From contig NZ_FMDO01000007.1 of NCBI RefSeq assembly GCF_900095305.1, positions 186,001-250,000 of the forward strand: a DNA stretch of 64,000 nt, written 5' to 3'. This DNA is from Proteiniborus sp. DW1. Lineage in GTDB: Bacteria; Bacillota; Clostridia; Tissierellales; Proteiniboraceae. The notes beneath the pieces are model-generated. The model made no database searches. It was not told the DNA's origin and saw only the letters and a program-made list of their open reading frames with translations. The first letter of the stretch is position 1. Each line of letters begins with the position of its first letter. The translations under genes were made by a program, and so were the position numbers. Positions 4,285 through 60,594 of the stretch are shown piece after piece.

Positions 4285-5886
4285 ATGATACATAAAAAAC
4301 ATATGGGAGTTTTTATGTTAATCTTCATAATAATTTTATTACCTACTATAACTTATGCCATAAATGAAGAAAGCTTAGAAGGTAGAGTAATTAGAATTGG
4401 CGGTGATAACAATTATCCACCCTATGAGTTTATAGACCAAAGCGGTAGCTATAGAGGCTTTAATGTAGACATTATGAGAGCAGTAGCAATTGAACTAGGT
4501 ATAGACATAGAGTTAATTCCAATGAGCTGGGGAACTGCACTTTACTCTCTCAAACATGGAGAAATAGATGCTATTCAAGGAATTACACGAACTAGCTCAA
4601 GGGAAGAGATATATGATTTTACTGAAGCATTAGTCACAAATTCTCAAAATATTTTTGTTATGAAGAACACAACCCATATAGCTGGATTAGAAGATTTATC
4701 GGGAGTTAAGGTTGCAATTCAGACAGGAGATGTGACAGATGAGATACTTGCTAAGGTACCTGATATAATCTTGATAGAAAAGGAAAATCAAGCAGAGGCA
4801 TTAGATGCTTTATTAAATGGCGAAGTAGAAGCTTATATGGGTAATAGATTAACAGGGATTTATTACATTCAAAAAAGAGGTTTGACAGAAGATGTAAAAA
4901 TAGTTGGAGTGCCTATGTATGTTACCCAGTATTCTTCAGCTGTCCAAAAGGGAAACAAAGAAATATTGGATTTATTAGATAAGGGAATAGAAGCTATAAA
5001 GAAAAATGGGACTTATGACAAAATTTACAAGAAGTGGTTTGGAGAGGAGATATTAGAACCTGGTATAAGATGGCAAAGGTTATTATATATATCCCTAGCA
5101 ATCATACTAATAGCCTTGATAGCTATTGTAATCATAATTATCTTGAATAGAAGCTTAAAAAGAGAAGTTGAAAATAGAACAAATGAAATAAAAAGATTAT
5201 ATGATATGGCAATGCATGACGATAAAATGAAAGCACTAGGTGAACTGTCTGCAGGAGTTGCTCATGAACTAAGAAATCCTCTGACATCTATAAAAGCATT
5301 TATAGACATGCTACCTTCTAAAATAAACAACCCAGAATTTGTGGAGGAACTTGTTAAGATAGTACCCAAGGAAATAAACAGACTTAATAGTCTAGTAAGC
5401 ACTCTTTTAGATTATGCTAAGCCAAAAGCTTCTGTTCCTCAGAAAAACATTCTAAAGTATGTACTTTCTGATATAATTATATTATTAAAACAGAAAATGA
5501 ACGAAAAAAATATTAGAATAATAGAAAGTGGAACAGACATAGAGGTATGGGCAGATACATCACAGCTTAAGCAGATAATGATAAATATACTTCTAAACAG
5601 TATAGAGGCAATAGAAAAAAATGGGGTAATATCAATAACTGGTAGCACAGATGATAAAAGTGCTATAATTACTATAACGGACAATGGATGTGGGATTTCA
5701 CAAGGTGTATTAAATAAGGTATTTGATCCTTTTTTCACATCAAAAAAATATGGATATGGAATAGGGCTATCTATAACACATCAACTTATAAAGGAGAACA
5801 AGGGACAAATTGTAATAGACAGTATAGAAGGAGTAGGAACAAGCATTACTATTAGCTTGCCTATTGCTACACTGGCTATAGAATAA
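4285..5886 (+). CDS. Sensor histidine kinase with periplasmic SBP_bac_3 domain
   Basis: This 533-residue protein has an N-terminal signal (1-25) and an extracytoplasmic amino-acid-type solute-binding domain (about 33-255, with NNYPPYEF, GITRTSSRE and a YDKIYKKWFG end). A single membrane helix follows (about 268-290), then a kinase core with H-box HELRNPLTSIK, N-box NILLNSIEAI, G1 DNGCG and G2 YGYGIGL. The kinase half is NtrB/ZraS-like. The binding domain probably senses an amino acid or related ligand and drives autophosphorylation of the His. The ATG follows AGAGGTGA. The response regulator starts 26 bases downstream, forming a two-component pair. The regulated target is probably the liv-type operon after it. 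The ligand is unknown. Confidence 0.92.
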   Translation: MIHKKHMGVFMLIFIIILLPTITYAINEESLEGRVIRIGGDNNYPPYEFIDQSGSYRGFNVDIMRAVAIELGIDIELIPMSWGTALYSLKHGEIDAIQGITRTSSREEIYDFTEALVTNSQNIFVMKNTTHIAGLEDLSGVKVAIQTGDVTDEILAKVPDIILIEKENQAEALDALLNGEVEAYMGNRLTGIYYIQKRGLTEDVKIVGVPMYVTQYSSAVQKGNKEILDLLDKGIEAIKKNGTYDKIYKKWFGEEILEPGIRWQRLLYISLAIILIALIAIVIIIILNRSLKREVENRTNEIKRLYDMAMHDDKMKALGELSAGVAHELRNPLTSIKAFIDMLPSKINNPEFVEELVKIVPKEINRLNSLVSTLLDYAKPKASVPQKNILKYVLSDIIILLKQKMNEKNIRIIESGTDIEVWADTSQLKQIMINILLNSIEAIEKNGVISITGSTDDKSAIITITDNGCGISQGVLNKVFDPFFTSKKYGYGIGLSITHQLIKENKGQIVIDSIEGVGTSITISLPIATLAIE

Positions 5887-5912
5887 TACATGTAAAATAG
5901 AAAGGTGATAAA

Positions 5913-7274
5913 ATGTACAATATATTAGTAATTGATGATGAACTTGCTATATTAACAGCGCTAAAGTTTGCTCTTGAAGATAGCTTTAATGTCTATTGTA
6001 CACCTAGTGTTCCAGAAGGCTTAGAGCTGTTAAGTAATAAGGATATAGATTTAGTGCTGTTAGATCAATATTTAGGAGAATATTCTGGTCTTGAAGTGTT
6101 ACAAACTATAAAAAACCAAAAACCTGGCACTTTAGTTATAGCTATGACAGCCTATGGAAGCATAGAAAATTCTATAGAAGCTATTCAAAGAGGTGCCTAT
6201 TATTATATCACAAAACCTTTGGACATAAATGGCTTAAAGATTCTAATAAACAAGGCTTTAGATTATAAAAATCTTTCTAATAGGGTAGAAGATTTAACGA
6301 AGCAAATAAATCATAAGCTAGGATTAGATAATATTGTAGCTTCTAGCAAGGCCATGGATGAGGTCTTTAAAATAATTGAGAGAGTCAAAGATTTAGACAT
6401 AAATGTATTAGTAACAGGTGAAAGTGGAACTGGAAAAGAGCTTATAGCTAGAGCTATACATAATTCAAGTAAGAGAGCCAGCGAAGCTCTAGAGATAATT
6501 AACTGTGCAGCGATTCCCTACAATCTTTTAGAAAGTGAGCTTTTTGGATATGAAAAAGGAGCTTTTACAGGCGCAAATCAACGCTATAAGGGTAAATTTG
6601 AACTGGCACATAAGGGAACTATTTTTCTGGATGAAATAGGAGAAATGGATATTCAGCTACAGGCAAAGCTACTTAGAGTAATACAAGAAAAGACAATTAC
6701 ACCTTTAGGTAGTGAAAAGTCAATTCCTGTTGACTTTAGATTAATTGCTGCTACTAACAAGAATTTAGCTGAAGAAGTAAAAAAAGGGAGATTTAGAGAG
6801 GATTTATTTTTTAGGTTAAATGTAATAAGCATAAATACTCCTCCATTGAGAGAGAGAAAAGAAGATATACCAGCCTTAGCAAAATATTTTATGAAAAAAT
6901 ATAGCGATGCCTTTAACAAGGAAGTATCAGGGATTTCAAAAAGTGCTATAGTAGTTTTAGAAAAGCACACTTATCCTGGAAATGTAAGGGAATTAGAAAA
7001 TATAATTGAAAGAGCTGTAGCATTAACAAATAACGATATAATAGATATTAGCGATTTACCAAAGGAAGTAGTAGGAAGTGTTGACTTAGGCCAGTCAAAT
7101 GAGCTGGTACCAATATATGTAGGAGATAGCTTGATAGAGGCAGAAAGAAAACTAATCCTAGCTACTCTAAAATACCATAATGGTAATAAAAGAAAAACAG
7201 CTAAGACTTTAGGTATGAGCGAGAGACACCTATATACGAAGATAAAGGATTATAACTTAGAGGAAGAATCGTAG
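5913..7274 (+). CDS. NtrC-family sigma54-dependent response regulator
   Basis: This 453-residue activator has an N-terminal receiver (IDDE acidic pair, phospho-acceptor Asp in LVLLDQYLG, TAY and KP switch residues). A central AAA+ domain follows with Walker A GESGTGKE, the sigma54-contacting GAFTGA loop, Walker B FLDEIGEMD and an arginine-finger region FREDLFFRLN. The C-terminal Fis-type helix-turn-helix includes NKRKTAKTLGMSERHLYTKI. It pairs with the upstream kinase (RBS AAAGGTGA). The intact GAFTGA predicts activation of a sigma54 promoter, and one lies 200 bases downstream before the liv-type genes. Two dyads overlapping its own stop codon may be its enhancer sites. Length is normal. Confidence 0.95.
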   Translation: MYNILVIDDELAILTALKFALEDSFNVYCTPSVPEGLELLSNKDIDLVLLDQYLGEYSGLEVLQTIKNQKPGTLVIAMTAYGSIENSIEAIQRGAYYYITKPLDINGLKILINKALDYKNLSNRVEDLTKQINHKLGLDNIVASSKAMDEVFKIIERVKDLDINVLVTGESGTGKELIARAIHNSSKRASEALEIINCAAIPYNLLESELFGYEKGAFTGANQRYKGKFELAHKGTIFLDEIGEMDIQLQAKLLRVIQEKTITPLGSEKSIPVDFRLIAATNKNLAEEVKKGRFREDLFFRLNVISINTPPLRERKEDIPALAKYFMKKYSDAFNKEVSGISKSAIVVLEKHTYPGNVRELENIIERAVALTNNDIIDISDLPKEVVGSVDLGQSNELVPIYVGDSLIEAERKLILATLKYHNGNKRKTAKTLGMSERHLYTKIKDYNLEEES

Positions 7275-7586: not shown

Positions 7587-8720
7587 ATGAAAAAGAAAGG
7601 TATATTAGCAGCAGTATTAGTATTAACTATGGTATTTTTAACAGCATGTGGAGGCTCAGATTCAGCAAATTCATCTAAAATATATATAGCTTCTGCAAAC
7701 CCTATGACTGGAGATTCAGCTCAATTTGGTGACATGAAGGTTAAAGCAATTCAGTTAGCAATTGACGAAGTCAATGCAGCAGGTGGAATTAATGGTAAAC
7801 AAGTAGAACTAATAGTTGGTGATGATACAGGTAATCCAAAAGAGGCTCCAAACGTAGCACAAAAATTTGCTGCAGATGATAAAATACTTGCAGTAATAGG
7901 TCACTGGAACAGTTCATGTACACTAGCAGCAAGAGGTATTTATGAAGCAGTACAAATGCCAGTTATAACAGATTCAGTTAACAAAGCTATAACAGATGGA
8001 ACGACTCCTCATATGTTCCGTATCTCATTAACAGATACAACTCAAGCTAAAAACCTTGCACAATATGCATATAATAAACTAGGTAAAAGAAATGCAGCTA
8101 TACTGTTTACAGCAAACGATTTTGGTACAGGCTTGAAAAACGATTTCACAGAAGAATTTACAAGATTAGGTGGAAAAATAGTAGCATCCGAAACATATTT
8201 TGAAGGACAATCTAAAGACTTTAGTCCACAGCTTACAAAGATAAAAGGACAAAATCCTGATGTGTTATTCGTGCCAGGATATTATGTTGAAACAGCATTA
8301 ATAGCACAACAAGCTAAGTCACTTGGTCTTAATATAGAAATGATAGGTACAGAAGGAATAAGTTCTGATGAACTTGTAAAGTTAGGAGGAGAAGCAGTAG
8401 AAGGCATTAAATTTGCAGCATTCTTCCATCCAGACATAGAATTCCCAGGAACAAAGGAATTCGTAGAAGCATTTAGATCTAAGTACAACAAAGAACCTGA
8501 CAACTACTCAGCCTTAGCATACGACTCAGCAAAACTTATCTTAGAAGGAATGAAGCAAAACGGTGCAACTAGAGAAGGAATAACAAAATATCTAAATGAA
8601 GTAAAGGACTTCCCAGGAGTTGCAGGTCCTATATCCTTTGAAAATAATGATGTAACTAGAGGTATAATCATATTAACTGTTAAAGATGGTAAGATAGTAC
8701 CAGCAGATGTTCAGTTATAA
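7587..8720 (+). CDS. livK: ABC transporter substrate-binding lipoprotein, branched-chain amino acid (LivK/LivJ) type
   Basis: This 377-residue protein has a lipoprotein signal (lipobox LTAC, Cys at residue 21) and a type I periplasmic-binding fold of the Leu/Ile/Val family. Typical motifs are NPMTGDSAQFGDM, INGKQVELIVGDDTGNP, GHWNSSCTLAA and YDSAKLILEGM. It should be tethered outside the membrane and deliver ligand to the LivHM permease. It is the first gene of a five-gene import operon behind a sigma54 promoter; the ATG follows AAAGGGAGG. Family members also bind other amino acids, amides or urea, so leucine/isoleucine/valine is only the default guess. Confidence 0.9.
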   Translation: MKKKGILAAVLVLTMVFLTACGGSDSANSSKIYIASANPMTGDSAQFGDMKVKAIQLAIDEVNAAGGINGKQVELIVGDDTGNPKEAPNVAQKFAADDKILAVIGHWNSSCTLAARGIYEAVQMPVITDSVNKAITDGTTPHMFRISLTDTTQAKNLAQYAYNKLGKRNAAILFTANDFGTGLKNDFTEEFTRLGGKIVASETYFEGQSKDFSPQLTKIKGQNPDVLFVPGYYVETALIAQQAKSLGLNIEMIGTEGISSDELVKLGGEAVEGIKFAAFFHPDIEFPGTKEFVEAFRSKYNKEPDNYSALAYDSAKLILEGMKQNGATREGITKYLNEVKDFPGVAGPISFENNDVTRGIIILTVKDGKIVPADVQL

Positions 8721-45491: not shown

Positions 45492-45575
45492 GCGGGAGTG
45501 GCGGAACTGGCAGACGCGCTAGACTTAGGATCTAGTGTCATAGACGTGGGGGTTCAAGTCCTCTCTCCCGCACCA
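45492..45575 (+). tRNA. tRNA-Leu (UAG), copy 1
   Basis: Acceptor GCGGGAG/CTCCCGC, anticodon loop CTTAGGA (TAG), long variable arm, encoded CCA, 84 bases. The same 84 bases recur at 60276 and 60511. Confidence 0.95.
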
Positions 45576-45951: not shown

Positions 45952-46581
45952 ATGGTAAAAAAAATTGGTTTTAATAATAAAACTAACAAAGATATTGATA
46001 GTGCATTTAAAGATTTCATTAGGTATTGCAGAGTTAAAAATCTATCAGATGCGACATTAACTTACTACGAAAATACGTATAAAACATTTAGAGAATTTTA
46101 CAAGGGTAAGTTAGAAGAAATAAAAGATAATGTAATAGATGATTATATCTTGTATCTAAGACAAAATACTAAAATGAACGACATATCAATTAATACAAGC
46201 ATTAGAGGTATTAGAGTAATTTTATATTATTTCATGAAATTAGGTTATATAGACAAATTTAAAATAACTATATCTAAAGCAGAGAAGAAAATAAAAGAAA
46301 CCTATACAGATGCAGAATTAGAATTACTATTAAAGAAACCTGATATCAAGGAATGTAACTTCGCAGATTATAGAACATGGGTAATAATCAATTTTCTTCT
46401 TGCGACAGGTGCTAGGGCTAATACAATATGTAACATTACTATTAAAGACTTAAATCTACAAGATAGCTATGTAGTTTATAGAAGCACTAAAAATAAAAGG
46501 CAGCAAATAGTACCACTAACAAATAGCGAAGAACCTCCAAATAGAGTTTTCTATTTTAGAAGGGAAATTAGAAAGATATAG
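45952..46581 (+). pseudogene. Tyrosine recombinase/integrase, truncated after the first catalytic Arg
   Basis: The 209-codon frame has an intact ribosome binding site (TAGGAGGTG) and a SAM-like N-terminal core-binding domain (about 15-95, DFIRYCRVKNLSDATLTYY). The catalytic domain then starts (LLLATGARANTICNITIKDLNL with the first active Arg, given here in part). It stops after KNKRQQIVPLT, around 46520. The H-x2-R, H/W and catalytic Tyr motifs are absent. Distal sequence reads instead into a metN remnant in another frame, so a deletion joined the two genes. It cannot be an active recombinase. Confidence 0.85.
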
Positions 46582-46684
46582 GGATAAACATTTTGGTTAT
46601 ATTACAATTAATGTTAAAGAAGAAGATTTCGAAAAAGTTCAGCAATATTTAAATAACAATAACATTAAATGGAATTCTTATTGA
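46544..46684 (+). pseudogene. metN: 3' remnant of metN (methionine ABC ATPase, NIL domain)
   Basis: In a different frame from the recombinase, this stretch encodes about 46 residues, FSILEGKLERYRDKHFG then YITINVKEEDFEKVQQYL, ending SY-stop. It fits the end of the NIL domain that closes MetN. It stops 15 bases before metI, the normal metN-metI spacing. The ATPase domain and upstream part are gone, replaced by the recombinase 5' part. The NIL assignment is from motif and position. Confidence 0.7.
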
Positions 46685-46699
46685 TCGTGAGGTGGAAAT

Positions 46700-47371
46700 A
46701 TGTTTGATTTTCTATCTGATTATCAAAAGAACTTTTGGAAGATGATTATGATACCAGCATTTAGTTCCACTATTCAAATAGTACTAATTACTACTATATT
46801 ATCTACAATACTAGGTTTTATTATAGCTGTTATATTAGTAATAACAAATAAAGATGGTTTACATCCAAATAAATTTATTTATCAAGTGCTATCTTTTGTT
46901 GTAAACGTAGTTCGTTCATTTCCATTTGTTATTTTGATGATATTTTTACTTCCATTTACAAAATCTTTAGTAGGTACTTCTTTTGGGGTAAAAGCTGCTG
47001 TAGTACCTTTAACTGTTTCTGCTACAGCGTTTATTGCAAGACTAATAGAAAGTGCTATGCAAGAAGTTGATAAAGATTTAATTGAAGCTATGCAGTCTTT
47101 TGGTATTTCAGATAAGCATATTATTTTTGGTGTTATTGTGTCAGAAGCAACACCAGCTATTATTTCTGGGGTTATAATTGCCACTATTGCTATTTTGGGT
47201 TCTACGGCTATGGCAGGGACCATGGGTGCTGGTGGTATTGGATCTGTTGCTATTACATACGGATATCAGAGTTTTAATAAAAAGGTAATGTATATGACAG
47301 CCTTTATTCTTGTTATAATGGTTCAGGGTATTCAGACAATTGGAAACTGGCTGTATAAGAAAATGAAATAG
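46700..47371 (+). CDS. metI: Methionine ABC transporter permease MetI
   Basis: This 223-residue permease has five membrane segments, RSFPFVILMIFLLPF, TAFIARLIESAMQEV, the ATPase-contact loop LIEAMQSFGISDKHIIFGVI and a GGIGSVAITYGYQ end, all typical of MetI. The ATG follows GTGAGGTGG. Its gene is intact, but the ATPase gene metN is reduced to a fragment and no metQ follows, so it can only work if partners are supplied elsewhere. A deleted copy of the same gene lies at 49103-49200. Confidence 0.92.
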   Translation: MFDFLSDYQKNFWKMIMIPAFSSTIQIVLITTILSTILGFIIAVILVITNKDGLHPNKFIYQVLSFVVNVVRSFPFVILMIFLLPFTKSLVGTSFGVKAAVVPLTVSATAFIARLIESAMQEVDKDLIEAMQSFGISDKHIIFGVIVSEATPAIISGVIIATIAILGSTAMAGTMGAGGIGSVAITYGYQSFNKKVMYMTAFILVIMVQGIQTIGNWLYKKMK

Positions 47372-47897
47372 TCTGTATAAGATTGTAATTCTAACTATAT
47401 TTGCCGAAGATTTGTATAGCTAGCTTTCTTTTAAAGCTAGTCTTTAAGTCACCGAGTAAGCTCATAAAGAAATTAAGAAGTCATTAGAATTTTTCAAACT
47501 GTATATTTGATGCTGTAGATGCTGTTTTAGAAGTAGCTGATAATTATGGATAATATTCTGTTAATACAAGGCTTGTAGGTTTTTCTACTGGCCTCTTTTA
47601 TTGTGTCTCATTAAAATCCTTGGTTCTACTAGGGATTCTAAAGAACTTTAACATAGAATGGATGCTTTAACAGTAGCCTAAAAATAAAGCAGTTGGTGAG
47701 TCATTATCGGCAGAAAGGGAGTTACATGAGCTGAGAAGTTCATATTAGAATTTATAAATTTTATTAATATTGACTATATTTACTATTAACATATTTGATT
47801 TGATTAAAAGCACTGTTGTGATAAAATTTTGACGAGAGTAAAGTAAAATGTGTTTGTCTAAAATGTAACAGAAATGAGAGTAGGGGGAGGTCTTAGT
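47372..47897. other. 526-bp region without intact genes after metI
   Basis: It starts with a weak hairpin (CTAACTATA.../TATAGCTAG, about 47391-47424), similar to the one after the decayed metI copy. The rest has many stops in all frames and short coding-like scraps (for example AVDAVLEVADNYG near 47512-47550), so it looks like decayed gene material. No cobalamin riboswitch motif was found. Confidence 0.45.
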
Positions 47898-49019
47898 ATG
47901 GACTACAGTGAACTAAAGCTTAGGATGAAGGATGCAAAATCAGAAATGACACCATCAGAGAGGTCAAAAAGATATTTTGCTGGTGAAGAAGTGGATCATA
48001 TTCCATATGGCTTGATTTCAATTTATGAAGCTTTGTCTGAAATCTATGGATATACGACTAGGAAAATAAATACTGATTTTAATGTTTTCGCTGAGATTAT
48101 AGAAAGAGCAAGGGATGATTATGGTTTAGAAGGAGTTAATTTAGGTTTGAGACTTAGAGGCATGGGAGCTGCTATGGGTTCAACTCTTTTCCATCCAGAA
48201 CATGGGATTGATCGTATAGAAGAACATATTTTACAGAGCTATGATGATTGGGATAAACTTGATAAGGCTGATCCATATAATAACAGAATTCTAACACCGA
48301 TGTTAGAAAAAGCAGCTAAAATAAGAGAGAAATTTCCCGAGATACCAATAAATACGGGTGTTGCAGGTCCGTTATCTACAACTATTGCAATTCGTCCAAT
48401 TGAAAAAGTTCTTAGAGATACAAGAAAGAACCCAGAGAGACTAAAAGAATTAATTGCCCTAGCTGTAGACAATTCTTTAAGATGGGTAGAGGTCTTTACA
48501 AAGGAATTTGGACCAGGTACAGTGTCTATATCAGACCCTGTTACTTGTACAGATATCTTAAGCCTAAGCCAATTTGAAGAGTTTTCTTTTCCAGAATTAA
48601 AACGATTAGTTTCAGGTCTTAAAGAGATTACAGGCTTGAAACCTTCTTTGCATATCTGCGGGCATACTAAAGGAATATGGGAAAAACTAAAGGAGTTAGA
48701 AATATCTTCTTTTAGTGTAGACAATTGTGAAGATATTGCAGAAGCCTGTGAAGTACTAGGAGGTACCTTTGCCATTGTAGGAAATGTGCCGCCAGTGGAT
48801 ATTTTAAAGAACGGTAGTATAGATGATGTAATAGAAAGCGTGAAGGAATGTATCCAAAAGAGTGCTACTTCACCGAAAGGATATATACTTTCTAGTGGAT
48901 GTCAAGTAGCAATGGGAACACCAAAGGAAAACTTAGAAGCGTATGTTTATGCAGCTAGGAAATATGGAAAGGGTGCAAAGATAGGTGAAATGCCAAGAGG
49001 CATATTAGAAGAAGACTAG
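47898..49019 (+). CDS. UroD-family (MtaA/CmuA/HemE-like) corrinoid methyltransferase 1
   Basis: This 373-residue protein of the uroporphyrinogen decarboxylase fold begins MDYSELKLRMKD and has MTPSERSKRYFAGEEVDHIP. The zinc-type motif LHICGHTKGIW (His-x-Cys) and a distal Cys in LSSGCQVAMGTPKENLEAYV follow the H-x-C...C pattern of zinc-dependent methyltransferases. Enzymes of this family move methyl groups between a substrate or cofactor and a corrinoid protein. The ATG at 47898 is chosen because AGGGGGAGG lies just upstream, trimming eight residues from the longer frame. Corrinoid protein, GTPase and activator genes follow downstream. It is probably the substrate-side enzyme; the substrate is unknown. 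Confidence 0.85.
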   Translation: MDYSELKLRMKDAKSEMTPSERSKRYFAGEEVDHIPYGLISIYEALSEIYGYTTRKINTDFNVFAEIIERARDDYGLEGVNLGLRLRGMGAAMGSTLFHPEHGIDRIEEHILQSYDDWDKLDKADPYNNRILTPMLEKAAKIREKFPEIPINTGVAGPLSTTIAIRPIEKVLRDTRKNPERLKELIALAVDNSLRWVEVFTKEFGPGTVSISDPVTCTDILSLSQFEEFSFPELKRLVSGLKEITGLKPSLHICGHTKGIWEKLKELEISSFSVDNCEDIAEACEVLGGTFAIVGNVPPVDILKNGSIDDVIESVKECIQKSATSPKGYILSSGCQVAMGTPKENLEAYVYAARKYGKGAKIGEMPRGILEED

Positions 49020-49102
49020 ATAATAGTAAAATTCCTAAAATGATAGATTAAGAGTTTTACTAATGAATTAGCTATCCTTTATATTAGAGAAGGAATTATA
49101 TT

Positions 49103-49200
49103 AGATTTTCTGTTTGATTATCAAAAGAACTTTTGGAAGATGATTATGATACCAGCATTTAGTACCACTAATTGTAATGGCTGTATAAGAAAATGAAATA
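49103..49200 (+). pseudogene. metI: Internally deleted copy of metI
   Basis: About 67 bases match the first part of metI (46704-46771) almost exactly. They then jump to the last ~28 bases (GGCTGTATAAGAAAATGAAA and stop, 47349-47370). Roughly 580 internal bases are missing and the start codon is altered (ATTAGATTTTCT). Similarity continues past the stop (TAGTCT-TAAGATT). High identity points to a recent duplication followed by deletion. Confidence 0.88.
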
Positions 49201-49224
49201 GTCTATATGTAAGATTATAATTTA

Positions 49225-49274
49225 AACTAGCTATATAAAGGGAAATTACACCCTAGTAGGTATAGCTAGTTTTT
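49225..49274 (+). terminator. Intrinsic terminator after the metI remnant
   Basis: AAACTAGCTATA pairs with TATAGCTAGTTTTT, loop about 25 bases, followed by Ts. It is related to the hairpin after intact metI. Confidence 0.75.
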
Positions 49275-49538
49275 CTATAAAATCTATCTTTATTCTAAAC
49301 CATTTTTCAATTTGACATCTTCTAATATTAATTTTAGAATTTTTAAATCGTCATCTTAGAATCTCTTAGGATTCCTAGTATTGGAACAACTTGGTGGTAA
49401 AAGTAGACAGATATATACTTAATAAAAAATATCTATACCTTAATAATTTTGTATTAATAAAATTAATTAGAAGCCTAGTAGTAACTAATATACAATATAT
49501 ATGCATGTGATATTTTTGTCAATTAAAATGGGGAAATT

Positions 49539-49838
49539 ATGCATAAATTAGACCAGATGATGCCAAATGAGAGATTGCAAGCTTTTATGACAGGTAAGGA
49601 AATGGATAGAATACTAGTTATGCCAATATTAGTATCAATTACCCATAGAGTAGTAGGGATGACACATAAAGAGAAGTTCAGCAGAAAATGAGGTAGCTGC
49701 AACATGTATATATCCTGTGCTTCGGGCTGTGATATTACACAAAATGTTCCTGTTGAAAACATAGATGCATTTATGGAAGCAGCTCGTAAGTATGGAAAAT
49801 ATCCATTAGATAAAGAGTTGTTAGGAATAGAAAACTAG
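49539..49838 (+). pseudogene. Decayed UroD-family methyltransferase gene
   Basis: The 5' end encodes MHKLDQMMPNERLQAFMTG then KEMDRILVMPILVSITHRVV, a UroD-family N terminus, and hits a TGA after KEKFSRK (49689-49691). Shifting one base restores AENEVAATC, so there is a frameshift. The 3' end encodes SCASGCDITQNVPVENIDAF and MEAARKYGKYPLDKELLG, the family's C terminus. The middle ~220 codons are missing. The TGA is not a likely selenocysteine because the core is deleted. It is a diverged paralogue of the intact methyltransferase upstream. Confidence 0.85.
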
Positions 49839-49883
49839 TATAAAATAATTGGGTTTAAATATATTATACGAGGAGGAATAAGT

Positions 49884-50552
49884 GTGAGCAAATCAAAAGA
49901 AGAACTGTTAAAACAGTTATCAGATTGTGTTTTTGAAATGGAAGATGAAGAGGTTATAAGTGTAGCACAGGAATATCTAGATGCTGGATATGACCCACTA
50001 GAGGGTATTACAGAAGGATTAGTCGATGGAATGAATAGAGCTGGAAAAATGTATGAAGAAGAAGAGTATTTTATTACAGACTTATTAATTTGTTCTGATG
50101 CTATGTACAATGGATTAGATATATTAAAGCCTCATTTGCCTCAAAAGAAACTTGAGGGAACAAAAACATATAAATGTGTTATTGGAGTTGTTGAAGGTGA
50201 CACTCATGATATAGGGAAGAACTTAGTAAAAATCATGTTAGAAACTGCTGGTTTTGAAATGTATGATTTAGGACGAGATGTACCTTTAAAAAATTTCATA
50301 GATAAAGCAAAAGAAGTAGATGCAGACCTTATTTGTCTATCAACTTTAATGACAACTACTATGCCTGGGATGAAAAGGGTTGTTGAAATGCTAAAAGAAG
50401 AGAAAATGTATGAAAAAACAAAAGTAATGATAGGTGGAGGACCTGTTTCCCAGACATACTGTGAAAAAATCGATGCTAGTGGCTATTCACCTAATGCAGT
50501 TGAAGCTGTTAAACTAGCAAAACTATTAGTTGGTATGGGTATTCCGGTGTAA
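49884..50552 (+). CDS. Corrinoid (cobalamin-binding) methyltransferase protein
   Basis: This 222-residue protein has an N-terminal helical cap (about 1-90, EYLDAGYDPLEGITEGLVDGM, shown in part) and a B12-binding Rossmann domain with VVEGDTHDIGKNLVKIML. The Asp-x-His-x2-Gly motif is the corrinoid lower ligand. It resembles MtbC/MtgC-type shuttles that carry the methyl group between two methyltransferases. The start is GTG with CGAGGAGGA upstream. It is the only corrinoid protein in the cluster, so all three UroD-type enzymes presumably act on it. It must be kept as Co(I), which the activator at 52626 can do. Confidence 0.95.
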   Translation: MSKSKEELLKQLSDCVFEMEDEEVISVAQEYLDAGYDPLEGITEGLVDGMNRAGKMYEEEEYFITDLLICSDAMYNGLDILKPHLPQKKLEGTKTYKCVIGVVEGDTHDIGKNLVKIMLETAGFEMYDLGRDVPLKNFIDKAKEVDADLICLSTLMTTTMPGMKRVVEMLKEEKMYEKTKVMIGGGPVSQTYCEKIDASGYSPNAVEAVKLAKLLVGMGIPV

Positions 50553-50571
50553 ATGATAGGAGGTTTTGATA

Positions 50572-51591
50572 TTGAATTCAAGAGAAAGACTTCTTTCTGC
50601 ATTGAAGGGAAATAAGGTGGATAGAGTTCCTTGTATTTGCCCTGGCGGAATGATGAACATGATTATAACTGAATTAATGGAAAAGACAGGAATCATATGG
50701 CCAGATGCTCATACAGATGCTAATAAAATGGCAGAGCTTGCAAGGGCTGTATATGAATATGGGATGTTTGAAAACTATGGCGTCCCATTTTGTATGACTA
50801 TTGAAGTAGAGAGTATGGGCTCAGGTATTGACATGGGCTCTAAAATTTTTGAACCTCATGTTGTTGATTATGTAATTAATTCAGTGTCAGATTATAAGGA
50901 GTTAAAAGCTTTAGATATAAATAGTGGGAGAGCTAAGGTAACAACAGATGCGATTTCAATTTTAAAAAGTAGAGGCGATGGTGTTCCTATAATTGGTAAT
51001 CTTTCAGGTCCTATTAGTGTAGCCTCATCACTTATGGATCCAGTTCCATACTATAAGGAATTAAGAAGAAAAAGAGAAGATGCTCATGAGTTTATGAAAT
51101 TTGTAACAAATCAAATTATTGAATTTGGTAAAGCTCAAGTAAAAGCAGGAGCAGATGTAATTGCCATATCTGATCCAAGTGGAACTGGAGAAATATTAGG
51201 TCCAAAATATTTTGAAGAGTATGCTGTTAAATATATTAATATGCTAATAGATGGTATTAGGGAAGTTGATGAAAATTTCCCTATAATTGTTCATATATGT
51301 GGTCAGATGCGTAGTGTATATTCTGAAATAAGAGAATTAAAAGCAGATGCTTTTAGTTTCGATGCAATTGTTAGCATAAAAGAAATAAGAGAGCATATGA
51401 GAGATAAGATTTTAATGGGCAATATAAGTTCTTTTGCTCTTGAATCTACTGATGAAGAAAAGATTAAGAAAATGACTGAAAATGCAATTAATAGTGGTAT
51501 AAATATTGTTTCACCTGCTTGTGGTCTTGGAACCCAATCATCAATGAAAAATATCCAAGCTATACTGAAAACTGTTAAAGCTGAAAGTTAA
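50572..51591 (+). CDS. UroD-family (MtaA-like) corrinoid methyltransferase 2
   Basis: This 339-residue protein begins MNSRERLLSALKGNKVDRVP and has CICPGGMMN, GSGIDMGSKI and the GNLSGPISVASSLMDP core. The zinc-type motif is IVHICGQM with distal Cys in VSPACGLGTQS, the His-x-Cys...Cys pattern seen in MtaA/MtbA. It lies 19 bases after the corrinoid protein gene. The TTG at 50572 is chosen because ATAGGAGG lies 8 bases before it; TTG at 50566 is too close. It is probably the second half-reaction enzyme, or a second substrate enzyme. A methyl acceptor other than coenzyme M is expected in a bacterium. Confidence 0.87.
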   Translation: MNSRERLLSALKGNKVDRVPCICPGGMMNMIITELMEKTGIIWPDAHTDANKMAELARAVYEYGMFENYGVPFCMTIEVESMGSGIDMGSKIFEPHVVDYVINSVSDYKELKALDINSGRAKVTTDAISILKSRGDGVPIIGNLSGPISVASSLMDPVPYYKELRRKREDAHEFMKFVTNQIIEFGKAQVKAGADVIAISDPSGTGEILGPKYFEEYAVKYINMLIDGIREVDENFPIIVHICGQMRSVYSEIRELKADAFSFDAIVSIKEIREHMRDKILMGNISSFALESTDEEKIKKMTENAINSGINIVSPACGLGTQSSMKNIQAILKTVKAES

Positions 51592-51606
51592 CAGGAAGGA
51601 GGAAAT

Positions 51607-52575
51607 ATGACTGTAAAAATAGACATTATCTCTGGCTTTTTAGGAGCTGGGAAAACAACTATGATTAAAAAGTTATTAGATGAAGATGTGTTAGGAGGCA
51701 GAATCGCCATAATAGAAAATGAGTTTGGAGAAATTAGTATAGATTCTAATAGGCTGGAAGAATCAGGCGTTGAGATAAAATCTATTTCATCTGGATGTAT
51801 ATGCTGTACACTTTCAGGAGATTTTCAATTGGCAATTAAAGAGCTTATAAAAGAACATAAGCCTAATAGAATCATAATTGAGCCAACAGGTTTAGGAAAG
51901 TTATCAGATATAATATCTACAATTAATATGACTAAAAAAACTGAAGATATTGAAGTAGATATGGCTATGACAATCGTAGATGTTTTAGAATTTGAAGATT
52001 TTATTGAAGTTTTTGGGGACTTTTTTAAAGATCAAATCCAATATGCAAATGCTATTGCTCTTAGCAAAGCTCAGTTGACTGATGAATCCAGAGTTAATAA
52101 TGTAATAAATTCTATTAGAGATATAAATACAGATGCTGCCATAATTGCATTCCCATGGAATGAGTTGGAAGCTAAGGATATTCTAGATGCAGCAAAATTA
52201 AATAAAAGAAATAAGCATATTTATGCACTAGATAACTGTGATGACGAGCACAATCATGCATATCATGACCATGTTCATGATCATAATCATGAAGAATATT
52301 CAGTTAATGCTTCATTTGATTATTGTTCTTTTGAAACTATGAAAACATATAGTGAAGAAGAGCTAGTATCTGTTTTAAATTCCCTAAGCAACTCAAAACA
52401 TGGTAAAGTTTTGAGAGCTAAAGGCTCTCTTTTAAATGATGATAAGAAGTGGGTTGACTTTGATTTTACACCTAGCAATTATGAAGTGAAAGTAGGAAAG
52501 ATAAAGACTATAGGTCAAGTCACAGTTATTGGAATTGATTTAAATAAAGATTCCATTAGAAACTTATTTAATTAA
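51607..52575 (+). CDS. CobW/G3E-family metallochaperone GTPase
   Basis: This 322-residue GTPase has Walker A SGFLGAGKTT, Mg-binding ENEFGEISID, the metal motif SGCICCTLSG (C-x-C-C), Walker B IIIEPTGLGK, a SKAQ variant of the base-specificity (N/S/T)KxD motif, and a His/Asp-rich stretch (DEHNHAYHDHVHDHNHEE, about 215-232). A CobW C-terminal domain follows. G3E proteins deliver metals such as Zn or Co. Placed between zinc-type methyltransferases and a corrinoid activator, it may load zinc into the UroD-type enzymes or assist the corrinoid; this is inference. RBS AGGAAGGAGG. Confidence 0.9.
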   Translation: MTVKIDIISGFLGAGKTTMIKKLLDEDVLGGRIAIIENEFGEISIDSNRLEESGVEIKSISSGCICCTLSGDFQLAIKELIKEHKPNRIIIEPTGLGKLSDIISTINMTKKTEDIEVDMAMTIVDVLEFEDFIEVFGDFFKDQIQYANAIALSKAQLTDESRVNNVINSIRDINTDAAIIAFPWNELEAKDILDAAKLNKRNKHIYALDNCDDEHNHAYHDHVHDHNHEEYSVNASFDYCSFETMKTYSEEELVSVLNSLSNSKHGKVLRAKGSLLNDDKKWVDFDFTPSNYEVKVGKIKTIGQVTVIGIDLNKDSIRNLFN

Positions 52576-52625
52576 ATTTCTAGAATAGTAGTGAATTCTA
52601 TTTTAGAAGCGGAAGGAAGTATGCA

Positions 52626-54350
52626 ATGCCTAAAGTAAATTTTGTAAAAGATAAAATATGTATTGAAGTTAAGGAAAATACACTTTTATTAGATGCTATT
52701 AGGAAAGCCAAACTAAGTATTGAAACTCCATGTAATGGTATGGGGTTTTGCGGTAAATGTAAGGTAATCGCTAAAGGACACCTGTCTGAACCAACTGATA
52801 GAGAAAGAAGGATTATAGATGAAGAAAAGTGCGAAAGACTATCATGTATGGCAAAGATTTTGGGTGATGTAGAAGTAGAACTAATTGAAAAGCAAAAAGT
52901 ATTAAAGACAATTAACAAGGGTTTTAGTATTGATGTAGAAGTTGATAGTCCTGTTAAATTAGTAAGACTTCCAAAAGTGAACAAATCAAGTTTTGTCCCT
53001 TATGTTGATTATATAGGATATAGAGTTAGCTCAGCAGAACTATATAAAAAGATTGCAGCTATAGAAGAAGGTAATTATGAGGAGATTTGGGGTGTAGCTT
53101 TTGAAGATAAGCTACTAGATATAACTACTTACAAGAAGACTGTGTTAGGTTTAGCTGTGGATATTGGAACTACAGGTGTTTCTTATTATTTAGTTGATTT
53201 ATCCAATGGACAAATAGTTAGAAACCTATCCTCTTTAAATCCTCAGACACAATATGGCGGGGATGTACTAACAAGGATTACATATTGCATGGAAAATCCA
53301 TCAGGAGCTGCCAAGCTTCAGGAATTAATAGTAGATGAAATAAACCATACAATTAAGAAGATTGTTGAGAATCTATATAGTATAGATGATATTTATCACA
53401 TTGCCATTGCAGCAAATACTACAATGATGCATTTATTATTAGGGATTAATCCTGAAATATTGGCTAAAGCACCATATAGAGCTGTGTTTTTAAGTTGTGA
53501 AGCTACTAAAGCAAGGGATATATGGATTAAGGCTAATAGTGAGGCTTTACTCACTATAATTCCATCTGCTTCATCATATGTAGGTGGGGATATAGTATCA
53601 GGCATTATGGCATCAGATTTTCAAGACAATAAAGAGGCTGTGTTCATAGATATAGGCACAAATGGCGAGTTGGCAGCTTTAAAGGATGGAAAGATAATAT
53701 GCACATCTACAGCAGCAGGCCCAGCATTAGAAGGTATGAATATCGAATGTGGATGCCGTGCAGAAGAAGGAGCTATAGAAAAATTTGATATTGATGAAGA
53801 CTATAATATTAATTACTCAACAATAGGAAATGCCAAAGCAATAGGAATCTGTGGTAGTGGTCTTATAGACATAGCTGGGGCATTGGTAAAAAGAGATATT
53901 GTAATGAAATCTGGCAGGTGGAATAAGAACTTTAATTCTAAATTGGCTGAAAGATTAGTAGATAAAAAGTTTTATATAACTGATGATATATTTATTTCTC
54001 AAAAGGACATAAGACAAATTCAGCTAGCTAAAGGGGCTGTAGCTGCTGGTGTAATTATGATGTTAGATGAGATAGGACTGACAATTGAAGACATACCATT
54101 AGTTTACATAGCTGGAGCTTTTGGCTATCATATTAATCCAGACAATATAATGGAGATAGGACTGATACCTAAAGGGTTTAATGGAGATATAAAGTTTTTA
54201 GGGAATACTTCACTAGAAGGTGCAAGGCTTGTCTTGATTAACAGGGATTGTTATAGAAAAGTATATGATATTAAGAGGGATATGGAAGTGTTGGAACTGT
54301 CTCTAAAAGAAAATTTTCAAGATATTTTTATTGGTCAGCTAAATTTCTAG
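52626..54350 (+). CDS. RACo-like corrinoid activation protein (2Fe-2S ferredoxin plus DUF4445/ASKHA ATPase)
   Basis: This 574-residue protein has an N-terminal plant-type [2Fe-2S] ferredoxin (CNGMGFCGKCKV and a later Cys, about 37-80), a linker, and an ASKHA-fold ATPase. The ATPase motifs are LAVDIGTTGVSYYLVDL, VFIDIGTNGELA, GICGSGLIDIAGAL and YIAGAFGYHINP. Homologues (RACo, RamA-type activators) use ATP to push an electron onto inactive Co(II) corrinoid and restore Co(I). RamA itself has a C-terminal two-4Fe-4S domain, which is lacking here, so this is RACo-like. The ATG at 52626 follows GGAAGGAAG. It supports methyl transfer via the nearby corrinoid protein. Confidence 0.92.
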   Translation: MPKVNFVKDKICIEVKENTLLLDAIRKAKLSIETPCNGMGFCGKCKVIAKGHLSEPTDRERRIIDEEKCERLSCMAKILGDVEVELIEKQKVLKTINKGFSIDVEVDSPVKLVRLPKVNKSSFVPYVDYIGYRVSSAELYKKIAAIEEGNYEEIWGVAFEDKLLDITTYKKTVLGLAVDIGTTGVSYYLVDLSNGQIVRNLSSLNPQTQYGGDVLTRITYCMENPSGAAKLQELIVDEINHTIKKIVENLYSIDDIYHIAIAANTTMMHLLLGINPEILAKAPYRAVFLSCEATKARDIWIKANSEALLTIIPSASSYVGGDIVSGIMASDFQDNKEAVFIDIGTNGELAALKDGKIICTSTAAGPALEGMNIECGCRAEEGAIEKFDIDEDYNINYSTIGNAKAIGICGSGLIDIAGALVKRDIVMKSGRWNKNFNSKLAERLVDKKFYITDDIFISQKDIRQIQLAKGAVAAGVIMMLDEIGLTIEDIPLVYIAGAFGYHINPDNIMEIGLIPKGFNGDIKFLGNTSLEGARLVLINRDCYRKVYDIKRDMEVLELSLKENFQDIFIGQLNF

Positions 54351-54363
54351 AAAAGGTGATAAA

Positions 54364-55227
54364 ATGACATCTAAAAATTTATTAAAGTGTATTGGTGAGA
54401 AGGTAGATTCAATACCTGACAGTATTTTGGAGGATTTAGGTTTGTCTTTTGAAGAGATAAATAATGATGCCTCTAAAATGGCTATCCTGTCAAAATCCCT
54501 TAAAAGATATAAGAATTCCTCGCATTGTAAAATACCTTTTTGCCATACTGTAGAAGCTGAAGCCTTTGGTTCTTCAGTGGTCTTTGACCATAAATATGGT
54601 AATAGAATTGGAGGATATGCAATTAAGGATATCAATTCAATAGATGATTTAAAAGAATTTGATTTAAGTAGAGGAAGAATTGCTGAGGTTTTAAAAGCTA
54701 TTAGTTTATTGAAGAAAGATGGAGAAAATGTAGTCCTTGATATAACAGGACCTGTTACACTTGGAACAGGTATTATAGATAGCAATGTATTTTTTAGGGC
54801 TACTAGAAAGGATATAGGCAAGGCTAATAAGTTGTTTGAATTAATCGAAAATAGTACTGTGGAGTATATACTAGAATCCATAAAAAATGGAGTTGACATA
54901 ATTTCCTATTCAGATCCAGCTGGTTCTTTAGATATAGTTGGACCAAAGTTTTTTAAAGACTTTGCAGGTAAAACTATATACAGTATTTTGAAAAGAGTTG
55001 AAGGCAAATTAGGAGACTCAGTTATTCATCTTTGTATCAAAACATCCAAATCTCTTGAATTATCTGGTTTTTTAGAGGTTGAAGAGACTAAAGTAGAAGG
55101 ACAAAGTTATTATGAAATAATTAAAAATGCTAAAAAAGAAAATAAAGATATAGAATTTTTAGGACACTGGTGTTTGAAGTCTAAAGCAAATAAAAATGAG
55201 ATAATCTGTTGTAAACTCATACCCTAG
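54364..55227 (+). CDS. Short UroD-family protein (methyltransferase 3), diverged C terminus
   Basis: This 287-residue protein is about 50 residues shorter than its neighbour at 50572. The N-terminal half matches it (SKNLLKCIGEKVDSIPDSI, KIPFCHTVEAEAFGSSV, DITGPVTLGTGIID), as does ISYSDPAGSLDIVGPKFF. The zinc-type His-x-Cys is kept (VIHLCIKTSK), but the segment leading to the distal Cys is compressed and the end reads GHWCLKSKANKNEIICC, with Cys residues in new places. It follows the activator gene by 13 bases with RBS AAAAGGTGA. It may be a specialised methyltransferase, a corrinoid-binding accessory or a decaying copy. Confidence 0.75.
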   Translation: MTSKNLLKCIGEKVDSIPDSILEDLGLSFEEINNDASKMAILSKSLKRYKNSSHCKIPFCHTVEAEAFGSSVVFDHKYGNRIGGYAIKDINSIDDLKEFDLSRGRIAEVLKAISLLKKDGENVVLDITGPVTLGTGIIDSNVFFRATRKDIGKANKLFELIENSTVEYILESIKNGVDIISYSDPAGSLDIVGPKFFKDFAGKTIYSILKRVEGKLGDSVIHLCIKTSKSLELSGFLEVEETKVEGQSYYEIIKNAKKENKDIEFLGHWCLKSKANKNEIICCKLIP

Positions 55228-60275: not shown

Positions 60276-60359
60276 GCGGGAGTGGCGGAACTGGCAGACG
60301 CGCTAGACTTAGGATCTAGTGTCATAGACGTGGGGGTTCAAGTCCTCTCTCCCGCACCA
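60276..60359 (+). tRNA. tRNA-Leu (UAG), copy 2
   Basis: 84 bases identical to the tRNA-Leu at 45492: acceptor GCGGGAG/CTCCCGC, anticodon TAG, long variable arm, encoded CCA. It has its own promoter. Confidence 0.95.
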
Positions 60360-60510: not shown

Positions 60511-60594
60511 GCGGGAGTGGCGGAACTGGCAGACGCGCTAGACTTAGGATCTAGTGTCATAGACGTGGGGGTTCAAGTCCTCTCTCCCGCACCA
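60511..60594 (+). tRNA. tRNA-Leu (UAG), copy 3
   Basis: Identical over 84 bases to copies 1 and 2. The CACCATAATAGCCAATG sequence at the 3' end is also shared with copy 2, so a unit of about 235 bp was tandemly duplicated. Confidence 0.95.

Follow-up and report, generated by a model that had tools for sequence, protein, structure and literature searches.

Where does a methyl group go once it has reached a corrinoid protein, if the genome offers no MtrH-type enzyme that could hand it on to tetrahydrofolate (H4folate)? This question is raised by a gene cluster of Proteiniborus sp. DW1, found at positions 47898-55227 of a 64,000-nucleotide stretch (hereafter the window) of contig NZ_FMDO01000007.1, which belongs to a 3.12-Mb genome in 62 contigs that is 99% complete. 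On the + strand the cluster encodes, in this order, the UroD-family protein UroD1, a corrinoid protein, UroD2, a COG0523/G3E GTPase, a RACo-like activator and the short UroD3 (Table 1). We consider it likely that the locus is a type 1 mlp gene cluster, which would demethylate methyl-selenium or methyl-sulfur compounds and pass the methyl group to a thiol.

Gene content and the missing tetrahydrofolate methylase

Pfam matches confirmed what the initial annotation had read from the sequence, namely three UroD-family proteins, one corrinoid protein and one RACo-type activator in the same orientation, with a G3E/CobW GTPase embedded among them. Its description of little spacing holds from the corrinoid gene onward, where the genes lie 13-50 bp apart, but not for the 864 bp between UroD1 and the corrinoid gene, the largest gap of the cluster, which holds a UroD remnant that had been overlooked. 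The absence of an MtrH-type enzyme extends to the whole genome, as no MtrH match was obtained in the 62 contigs, where an assembly gap could hide a gene; the same search returned matches in two methanogens. The pterin-binding domain PF00809 has one match only in the genome, in an 800-amino-acid frame on contig C52, which also holds one of the two PF02607 matches (the other being the corrinoid protein of the cluster) and which we read as MetH; no AcsE-type partner was found in the genome. With no MtrH and a single PF00809 match in MetH, there is therefore no known methylcorrinoid:H4folate enzyme to accept the methyl group. Acetyl-CoA synthase (PF03598) was likewise without a match in the genome, in a search whose control was positive in two archaea only. 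Because neither PF03598 nor a pterin-binding protein other than MetH was found, the host is probably not an acetogen, and the acetogen O-demethylase frame in which the locus had initially been placed is not supported.

By definition, an H4folate methylase is also lacking in the type 1 mlp gene cluster described by Kountz and Balskus (PMC10418091). Such clusters combine at least two MtaA-like proteins (>25% identity to a characterised coenzyme M methyltransferase) with a corrinoid protein and a Ram/RACE protein, run in one direction with no divergent gene in between and gaps of at most 2 kb, and have no H4folate methylase within 20 kb (PMC10418091). The four published traits are all found here: UroD1, UroD2 and UroD3 share 26.7%, 32.1% and 25.1% identity with MtaA in BLASTP, all genes lie on the + strand with no gap reaching 2 kb, and the only PF00809 match is on another contig. 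What had been taken for the best candidate of an undescribed pathway thus agrees with a described one in the genes present, in having no H4folate methylase and in the branching of the tree. The cluster adds a new example, real and well-formed, to that system, and the missing MtrH, which had puzzled the initial annotation, is part of how this cluster type is defined and not a gap.

Clades, zinc ligands and relatives of the cluster proteins

A phylogeny of the three UroD proteins, as the initial annotation had proposed, was obtained as a 65-row tree with MtaA and HemE for reference and gives three clades that branch as published for the Mlps. The UroD1 type falls on the HemE side of MtaA (split 100/95), while UroD2 and the short UroD3 stand jointly on the other side (99/91), which is the published pattern for Mlps2 versus Mlps1 and 3. 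In the published phylogeny, three Mlp clades are distinguished, Mlps2 being sister to a group of coenzyme M methyltransferases, Mlps1 and Mlps3, and ClMlp3 is the most MtaA/MtbA-like Mlp (PMC10418091). Since the topologies agree and UroD2 is the most MtaA/MtbA-like of the three window proteins, as ClMlp3 is among the Mlps, we read UroD1, UroD2 and UroD3 as Mlp2-, Mlp3- and Mlp1-like, respectively. Likeness to MtaA/MtbA (PDB 4ay7) extends to the PRK06252 and TIGR01463 models, whose cut-offs UroD2 exceeds, and to a shared HxC...C motif, whereas UroD2 stays below the equivalog cut-offs of NF040654 for MtaA (234 vs 400 bits) and NF041608 for MtbA (219 vs 600 bits).

The HxC...C motif is present in all three window UroD proteins. 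It has been assigned to selenium/sulfur methyltransferases, and His-Cys-Cys ligands are described for Mlps with the exception of several Mlps1 (PMC10418091). A thiol had been among the donors suggested at the outset (methylated amines, ethers or thiols). Among the aligned rows, it was seen in 24 of 25 of the UroD1 type (the exception being a 125-amino-acid fragment) and in 18 of 20 of the UroD2 type, the exceptions being a divergent 289-amino-acid row that the tree places in the short clade and a 67-amino-acid fragment. The short type shows it in 13 of 19 rows; in the other six, His is replaced by L, L, S or T in four and the last Cys is absent from the alignment in two, one of these rows being cut off by a contig end. 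H243, C245 and C319 of UroD2 are invariant in 15 aligned sequences. The corresponding residues are H252, C254 and C335 in UroD1 (counted from 47898), and in UroD3 H222 and C224, with C270 as a candidate third ligand.

In the short UroD3 family, C9, C55, C60, C224 and C270 are invariant, also in 15 aligned sequences. An hhalign comparison with the UroD2 family stops about 20 residues past the HxC motif; in place of the usual C-terminus, the short proteins carry a brief segment containing a conserved G-x-x-C (for example GHWC, GHNC or GQMC). MtaA is the only PDB match of the short-family profile. We rejected the idea of a truncated pseudogene, as the short form is conserved and has a dN/dS (ratio of nonsynonymous to synonymous divergence) of 0.22. 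Across 196 genomes of the class the profile matched ten at E <=1e-20, only six of them (own genome included) over full length, and the remaining matches were partial or to UroD2-like genes. UroD3 may represent a distinct methyltransferase type or an accessory subunit.

Using the window proteins, we read 23 loci, 21 in other genomes (most chosen for their UroD2 match) and two in the own genome, and found a corrinoid protein, a UroD2 homologue and an activator on one strand in 15 of them. Fourteen of these 15 clusters contain a short UroD3 homologue, the contig of the fifteenth ending inside the activator gene, and 12 contain a UroD1-type gene; the gene set is conserved beyond chance. A scan of genome contigs yielded four loci, with UroD2 identities of 90% in a Tissierellia metagenome-assembled genome (MAG; L038), 71% in Tissierella creatinophila (L039), 90% in Schnuerera sp. 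xch1 (L040) and 48% in an uncultured Clostridia MAG (L041). A plasmid collection gave four records with one close match, the 2.6-Mb Acetoanaerobium noterae record NZ_CP154629.1 (L071), in which an SsuA-like importer, COG0523, UroD3, UroD1, corrinoid protein, UroD2, RACo and a further UroD1-type gene follow each other. This record (2.63 Mb) is labelled as a plasmid, has four annotated features in the collection table, none of them in the cluster stretch, and looks like a mislabelled chromosome.

The translation of the cluster GTPase contains a GCICC motif and the His-rich stretch NHAYHDHVHDHNH, and a CxCC motif with a His-rich stretch in a G3E GTPase is what we take to be the mark of a COG0523 zinc chaperone. 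Zinc delivery is our best guess for its function, although the zinc chaperone model NF038288 gives 101 bits against a cut-off of 600; it is by far the strongest of five PF02492 matches in the genome. COG0523 homologues occur in four of the 15 clusters counted (L038, L040, L048 and L055), in the partial L052 locus, and in A. noterae. The link of such GTPases to corrinoid methyltransferases is known in outline, COG0523 subfamily 13 having been noted in 2009 beside genes of Zn-dependent corrinoid methyltransferases, also in C. botulinum (Haas et al., PMC2770081). Like that subfamily, the window protein is a G3E GTPase among corrinoid methyltransferase genes, a likeness of genomic context.

With the type 1 mlp clusters of C. 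ljungdahlii, C. sporogenes and H. thermocellum (PMC10418091), the locus shares at least two MtaA-like proteins that fall into three clades, the corrinoid and Ram/RACE proteins, the single strand, the lack of an H4folate methylase, the His-Cys-Cys motifs and a selenium trait in the genome. It differs from them in gene order, in having an Mlp2-type paralogue next to an SsuA-like importer on a separate contig, in a decayed Mlp2-type copy, and in the COG0523 GTPase inside the cluster; the words CobW and GTPase occur nowhere in the main text of version 4 of PMC10418091. The SdmABC dimethylselenide system of Methanococcus voltae/maripaludis (Niess and Klein 2004, via PMC11097638 and PMC10418091) also comprises a corrinoid protein and UroD-type methyltransferases and is thereby alike in gene families; its host is archaeal and SdmC is called a coenzyme M methyltransferase (PMC11097638).

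Substrate, acceptor and competing readings

For substrate and acceptor, published work on the relatives and the motifs suggest the following route. RACo would reduce the corrinoid protein to Co(I) using ATP, and UroD1 as well as a paralogue on contig C44 would bind a methylated selenium or sulfur compound via the His-Cys-Cys zinc. UroD1 would then move the methyl group to the corrinoid, releasing a selenol/selenide or thiol, and UroD2 would take it off the corrinoid protein and hand it to a thiol (homocysteine or sulfide), a step that should need neither coenzyme M nor H4folate. The COG0523 GTPase would load zinc into the UroD-type enzymes, and UroD3 would act as a further S/Se-methyl enzyme or partner subunit. 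The net result would be that selenium (and/or sulfur and methyl groups) is recovered, for example for selenoprotein synthesis, in a host that is probably an amino-acid-fermenting relative of Schnuerera and Tissierella. Of the initial suggestion that a UroD-type enzyme serves H4folate or another acceptor, the UroD acceptor half-reaction stays probable, while an O-demethylase merely short of its second enzyme does not.

A selenium trait is present in the genome: selB is full-length and over its cut-off, selA adjoins it, and a selenocysteine-coding GrdB-type gene at 1290-2597 carries a UGA codon in frame at 2337-2339, with a SECIS_4 (selenocysteine insertion sequence) match directly behind it at 2340-2377. 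This gene and the one at 90-1265 are GrdG/GrdF-type glycine/sarcosine reductase component B genes, the former being split in a plain six-frame reading. Among selected neighbours scanned, HGD-D genes, which we take to encode the 'dicubane cluster' proteins of Kountz and Balskus, adjoin the clusters of L043, L044 and L045 and lie one gene away in L046 and L049. Dicubane proteins, selABCD and grd genes are tied to type 1 mlp clusters, ClMlp2 methylates selenide, and dimethylselenide use is lost in an Mlp2 mutant of M. voltae (PMC10418091).

Several observations weigh against the assignment. The tree holds no C. ljungdahlii or M. voltae Mlp sequence, so that the names Mlp1, 2 and 3 are those of topology and motifs, and MtaA and HemE form long branches in it. 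Mlp1 is often absent from published clusters, in which Mlp2 and Mlp3 are nearly universal (PMC10418091), whereas here the short UroD3 is more frequent than UroD1 types (14 and 12 of 15 clusters), which leans against calling the short form Mlp1. The UroD1-type profile matches CdmB (E=1.8e-17) and HemE enzymes in the PDB, if behind MtaA (1.1e-52). As selB is over its cut-off in 54 of 60 genomes searched, including all 15 with a close UroD2 homologue (E <=1e-80, own genome included), its presence alongside such a homologue is uninformative, and we dropped the selenium trait as a cluster correlate. Three of these 15 genomes (G023, G042, G051) encode nitrogenase-like PF00148 proteins, which are over the cut-off in six of the 60. 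The nearby importers, MetI-, SsuA- and OsmF-like and all below model cut-offs, suit sulfur as well as selenium.

It is possible, if rather doubtful, that the same cluster type handles methyl-sulfur compounds only, salvaging methionine or methylthio compounds with MetNI-/SsuA-type importers supplying the methyl donor. A MetI gene and a MetN remnant directly upstream of the cluster, MetNIQ beside UroD1-type genes in L055 and an SsuA-like importer adjoining the C44 paralogue all favour this, while selA, selB and the selenocysteine-coding gene speak against it. The published sulfur-only subtype is accompanied by MarHDK/nitrogenase-like genes (PMC10418091), which were not found here; there is no PF00148 match in the own genome, which counts against that subtype, and we set it aside.

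An acetogen O-demethylase whose MtrH step, the methylation of tetrahydrofolate, is taken over by a UroD enzyme appears highly improbable. UroD-type methyltransferase, corrinoid protein and RACo are all O-demethylase parts, shared with the Mto/Odm O-demethylases and the Cdm chloromethane system (CdmB, PDB 9rui), MtrH is missing, and the UroD1-type profile does match CdmB. The Mto system, however, has an MtrH-related second enzyme (PMC8630106), and CdmB is without the HxC...C motif in the printed alignment, unlike all three window UroD proteins. UroD2 has the coenzyme M methyltransferase MtaA as its nearest PDB match, and with no MtrH, no acetyl-CoA synthase match, no pterin-binding protein except MetH and the zinc motif in place, we rejected this candidate. 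That the cluster is decaying and non-functional, as the UroD and MetI remnants in the 864-bp gap, the MetN remnant upstream, a truncated integrase and fewer genes than in the L040 cluster might indicate, is very hard to believe with all six remaining genes open and apparently under purifying selection.

Probable exchange, remnants and surroundings

From 49711 onward, the cluster shares 86-88% nucleotide identity with that of Schnuerera sp. xch1 (L040), which is taken to belong to the same order as the host but to a different family, compared with only 60-62% identity for the proteins of the selBA region. Synonymous divergence (dS) from L040 is 0.35-0.60 for five cluster genes, far below the 1.49 of selB, which makes horizontal transfer the simplest reading; the core has probably passed horizontally between this lineage and a Schnuerera relative. 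Among same-genus genomes, G001 has no UroD2 match and G002 one of 55%. The ends of the UroD remnant in the 864-bp gap share 77% and 97% identity with the protein at L040:8209-9288, and L040 itself retains a fragment at 7615-7992, 257 bases of which are 82% identical to window UroD1. Judging by these matches, Mlp2-type paralogues have been lost reciprocally over a shared core, the orthologue of L040:8209-9288 having decayed in the window and the UroD1 counterpart in L040. Purifying selection seems to act on the six remaining genes, whose dN/dS values are 0.09-0.25 when UroD1 is compared with the C44 paralogue and the other five genes with L040.

Table 1. Genes and gene remnants in and directly upstream of the cluster, in window coordinates (PF01208 cut-off 23.9 bits).
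Feature	Position	Strand	Evidence
MetN-type ATPase remnant (NIL-domain end), at end of truncated integrase frame	46520..46672	+	tblastn of L055:790-1818 (ABC_tran + NIL), 41% over 51 amino acids
MetI-type ABC permease, no intact MetN/MetQ adjoining	46700..47371	+	PF00528; PRK10782 MetI 163 bits (< 212 cut-off); 55% identity to L055 MetI-type gene
UroD1, Mlp2-like corrinoid methyltransferase, probable donor-side demethylase	47898..49019	+	PF01208 189 bits; 26.7% to MtaA; HxC...C motif; tree clade
Remnant of a second MetI gene with an internal deletion	49092..49229	+	blastn to window 46694-46772 (92%) and 47338-47397 (85%)
Decayed copy of another UroD (Mlp2-type) gene, both termini left, middle gone	49364..49850	+	Nucleotide identity 83% and 93% to L040 8036-8376 and 9162-9300
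Corrinoid protein (methyl carrier)	49884..50552	+	PF02607 + PF02310 (B12-binding_2 + B12-binding); TIGR02370 210 bits, just < 215 cut-off; dN/dS 0.09 vs L040
UroD2, Mlp3-like, MtaA/MtbA-like methyltransferase, probable acceptor side	50566..51591	+	PF01208 274 bits; PRK06252 422 bits, TIGR01463 242 bits, both > cut-off; PDB 4ay7 MtaA E=1e-48, 32.1% identity
COG0523/G3E GTPase with GCICC and His-rich stretch, probable zinc chaperone	51607..52575	+	PF02492 138 bits; translation
RACo/Ram-type corrinoid reductive activator	52626..54350	+	Fer2 + Raco_middle + RACo_C_ter (246 + 185 bits); PDB 3zyy E=3.5e-81
UroD3, short (287 amino acids) Mlp1-like protein, canonical C-terminus replaced	54364..55227	+	PF01208 82 bits, match reaches only position 254 of 346; 25.1% to MtaA

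The start of UroD1 at 47898 has the Shine-Dalgarno-like AGGGGGAGG just upstream and is a better fit than the longest frame from 47874; for UroD2, a TTG at 50572 is a possible alternative start. No riboswitch was found in the window at gathering score, the RNA-family matches being nine tRNAs and one SECIS only. Between 46500 and 55700, promoter patterns were about as frequent as expected from shuffled sequence (57 against 49.1, standard deviation 7.3), and so were terminator patterns (3 against 2.3). The tyrosine integrase frame at 45952-46581 adjoins a tRNA array, stops short (its Pfam match reaches profile position 73 of 172) and runs into the MetN remnant. Three tRNA-Leu (tag) genes share 99-100% nucleotide identity, one in the seven-tRNA array (45492-45575) and two about 15 kb downstream (60276-60359 and 60511-60594). 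Further away, 4285-7274 encodes a protein with matches to both histidine kinases and amino-acid binding proteins and, after it, a response regulator of the sigma-54 type.

Importer genes accompany the clusters or their Mlp2-type genes at several loci, their names being family-level only, as all lie below curated cut-offs. In the window, the MetI gene and the MetN remnant are the leftover of a MetNI unit. In L055, genes for MetNIQ and for an SsuA-like importer lie among four UroD1-type genes, and L048 has an OsmF-like importer. PF01208 has four matches in the genome, the three of the cluster and the UroD1 paralogue on contig C44 (74-75% identity), which adjoins an SsuA-like binding protein, an ABC ATPase and a permease (L059 8159-12299) and may, together with them, form a satellite module of the cluster. 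Tentatively, and as one possibility among others, the clusters may practise modular scavenging, in which a fixed core (corrinoid protein, Mlp3-like acceptor enzyme, activator and often a COG0523 zinc chaperone) is combined with exchangeable donor modules, each made up of an Mlp2-type demethylase and its own MetNIQ-, SsuA- or OsmF-like importer and some possibly located elsewhere in the genome, and the short UroD3 with its G-x-x-C end is a distinct methyltransferase or accessory subunit. The importer pairings, and the C44 paralogue beside its SsuA-like transporter, offer testable candidates for the substrates of such clusters, and the locus places a Schnuerera/Tissierella-related lineage among the anaerobes likely to recycle methyl-selenium or methyl-sulfur compounds.

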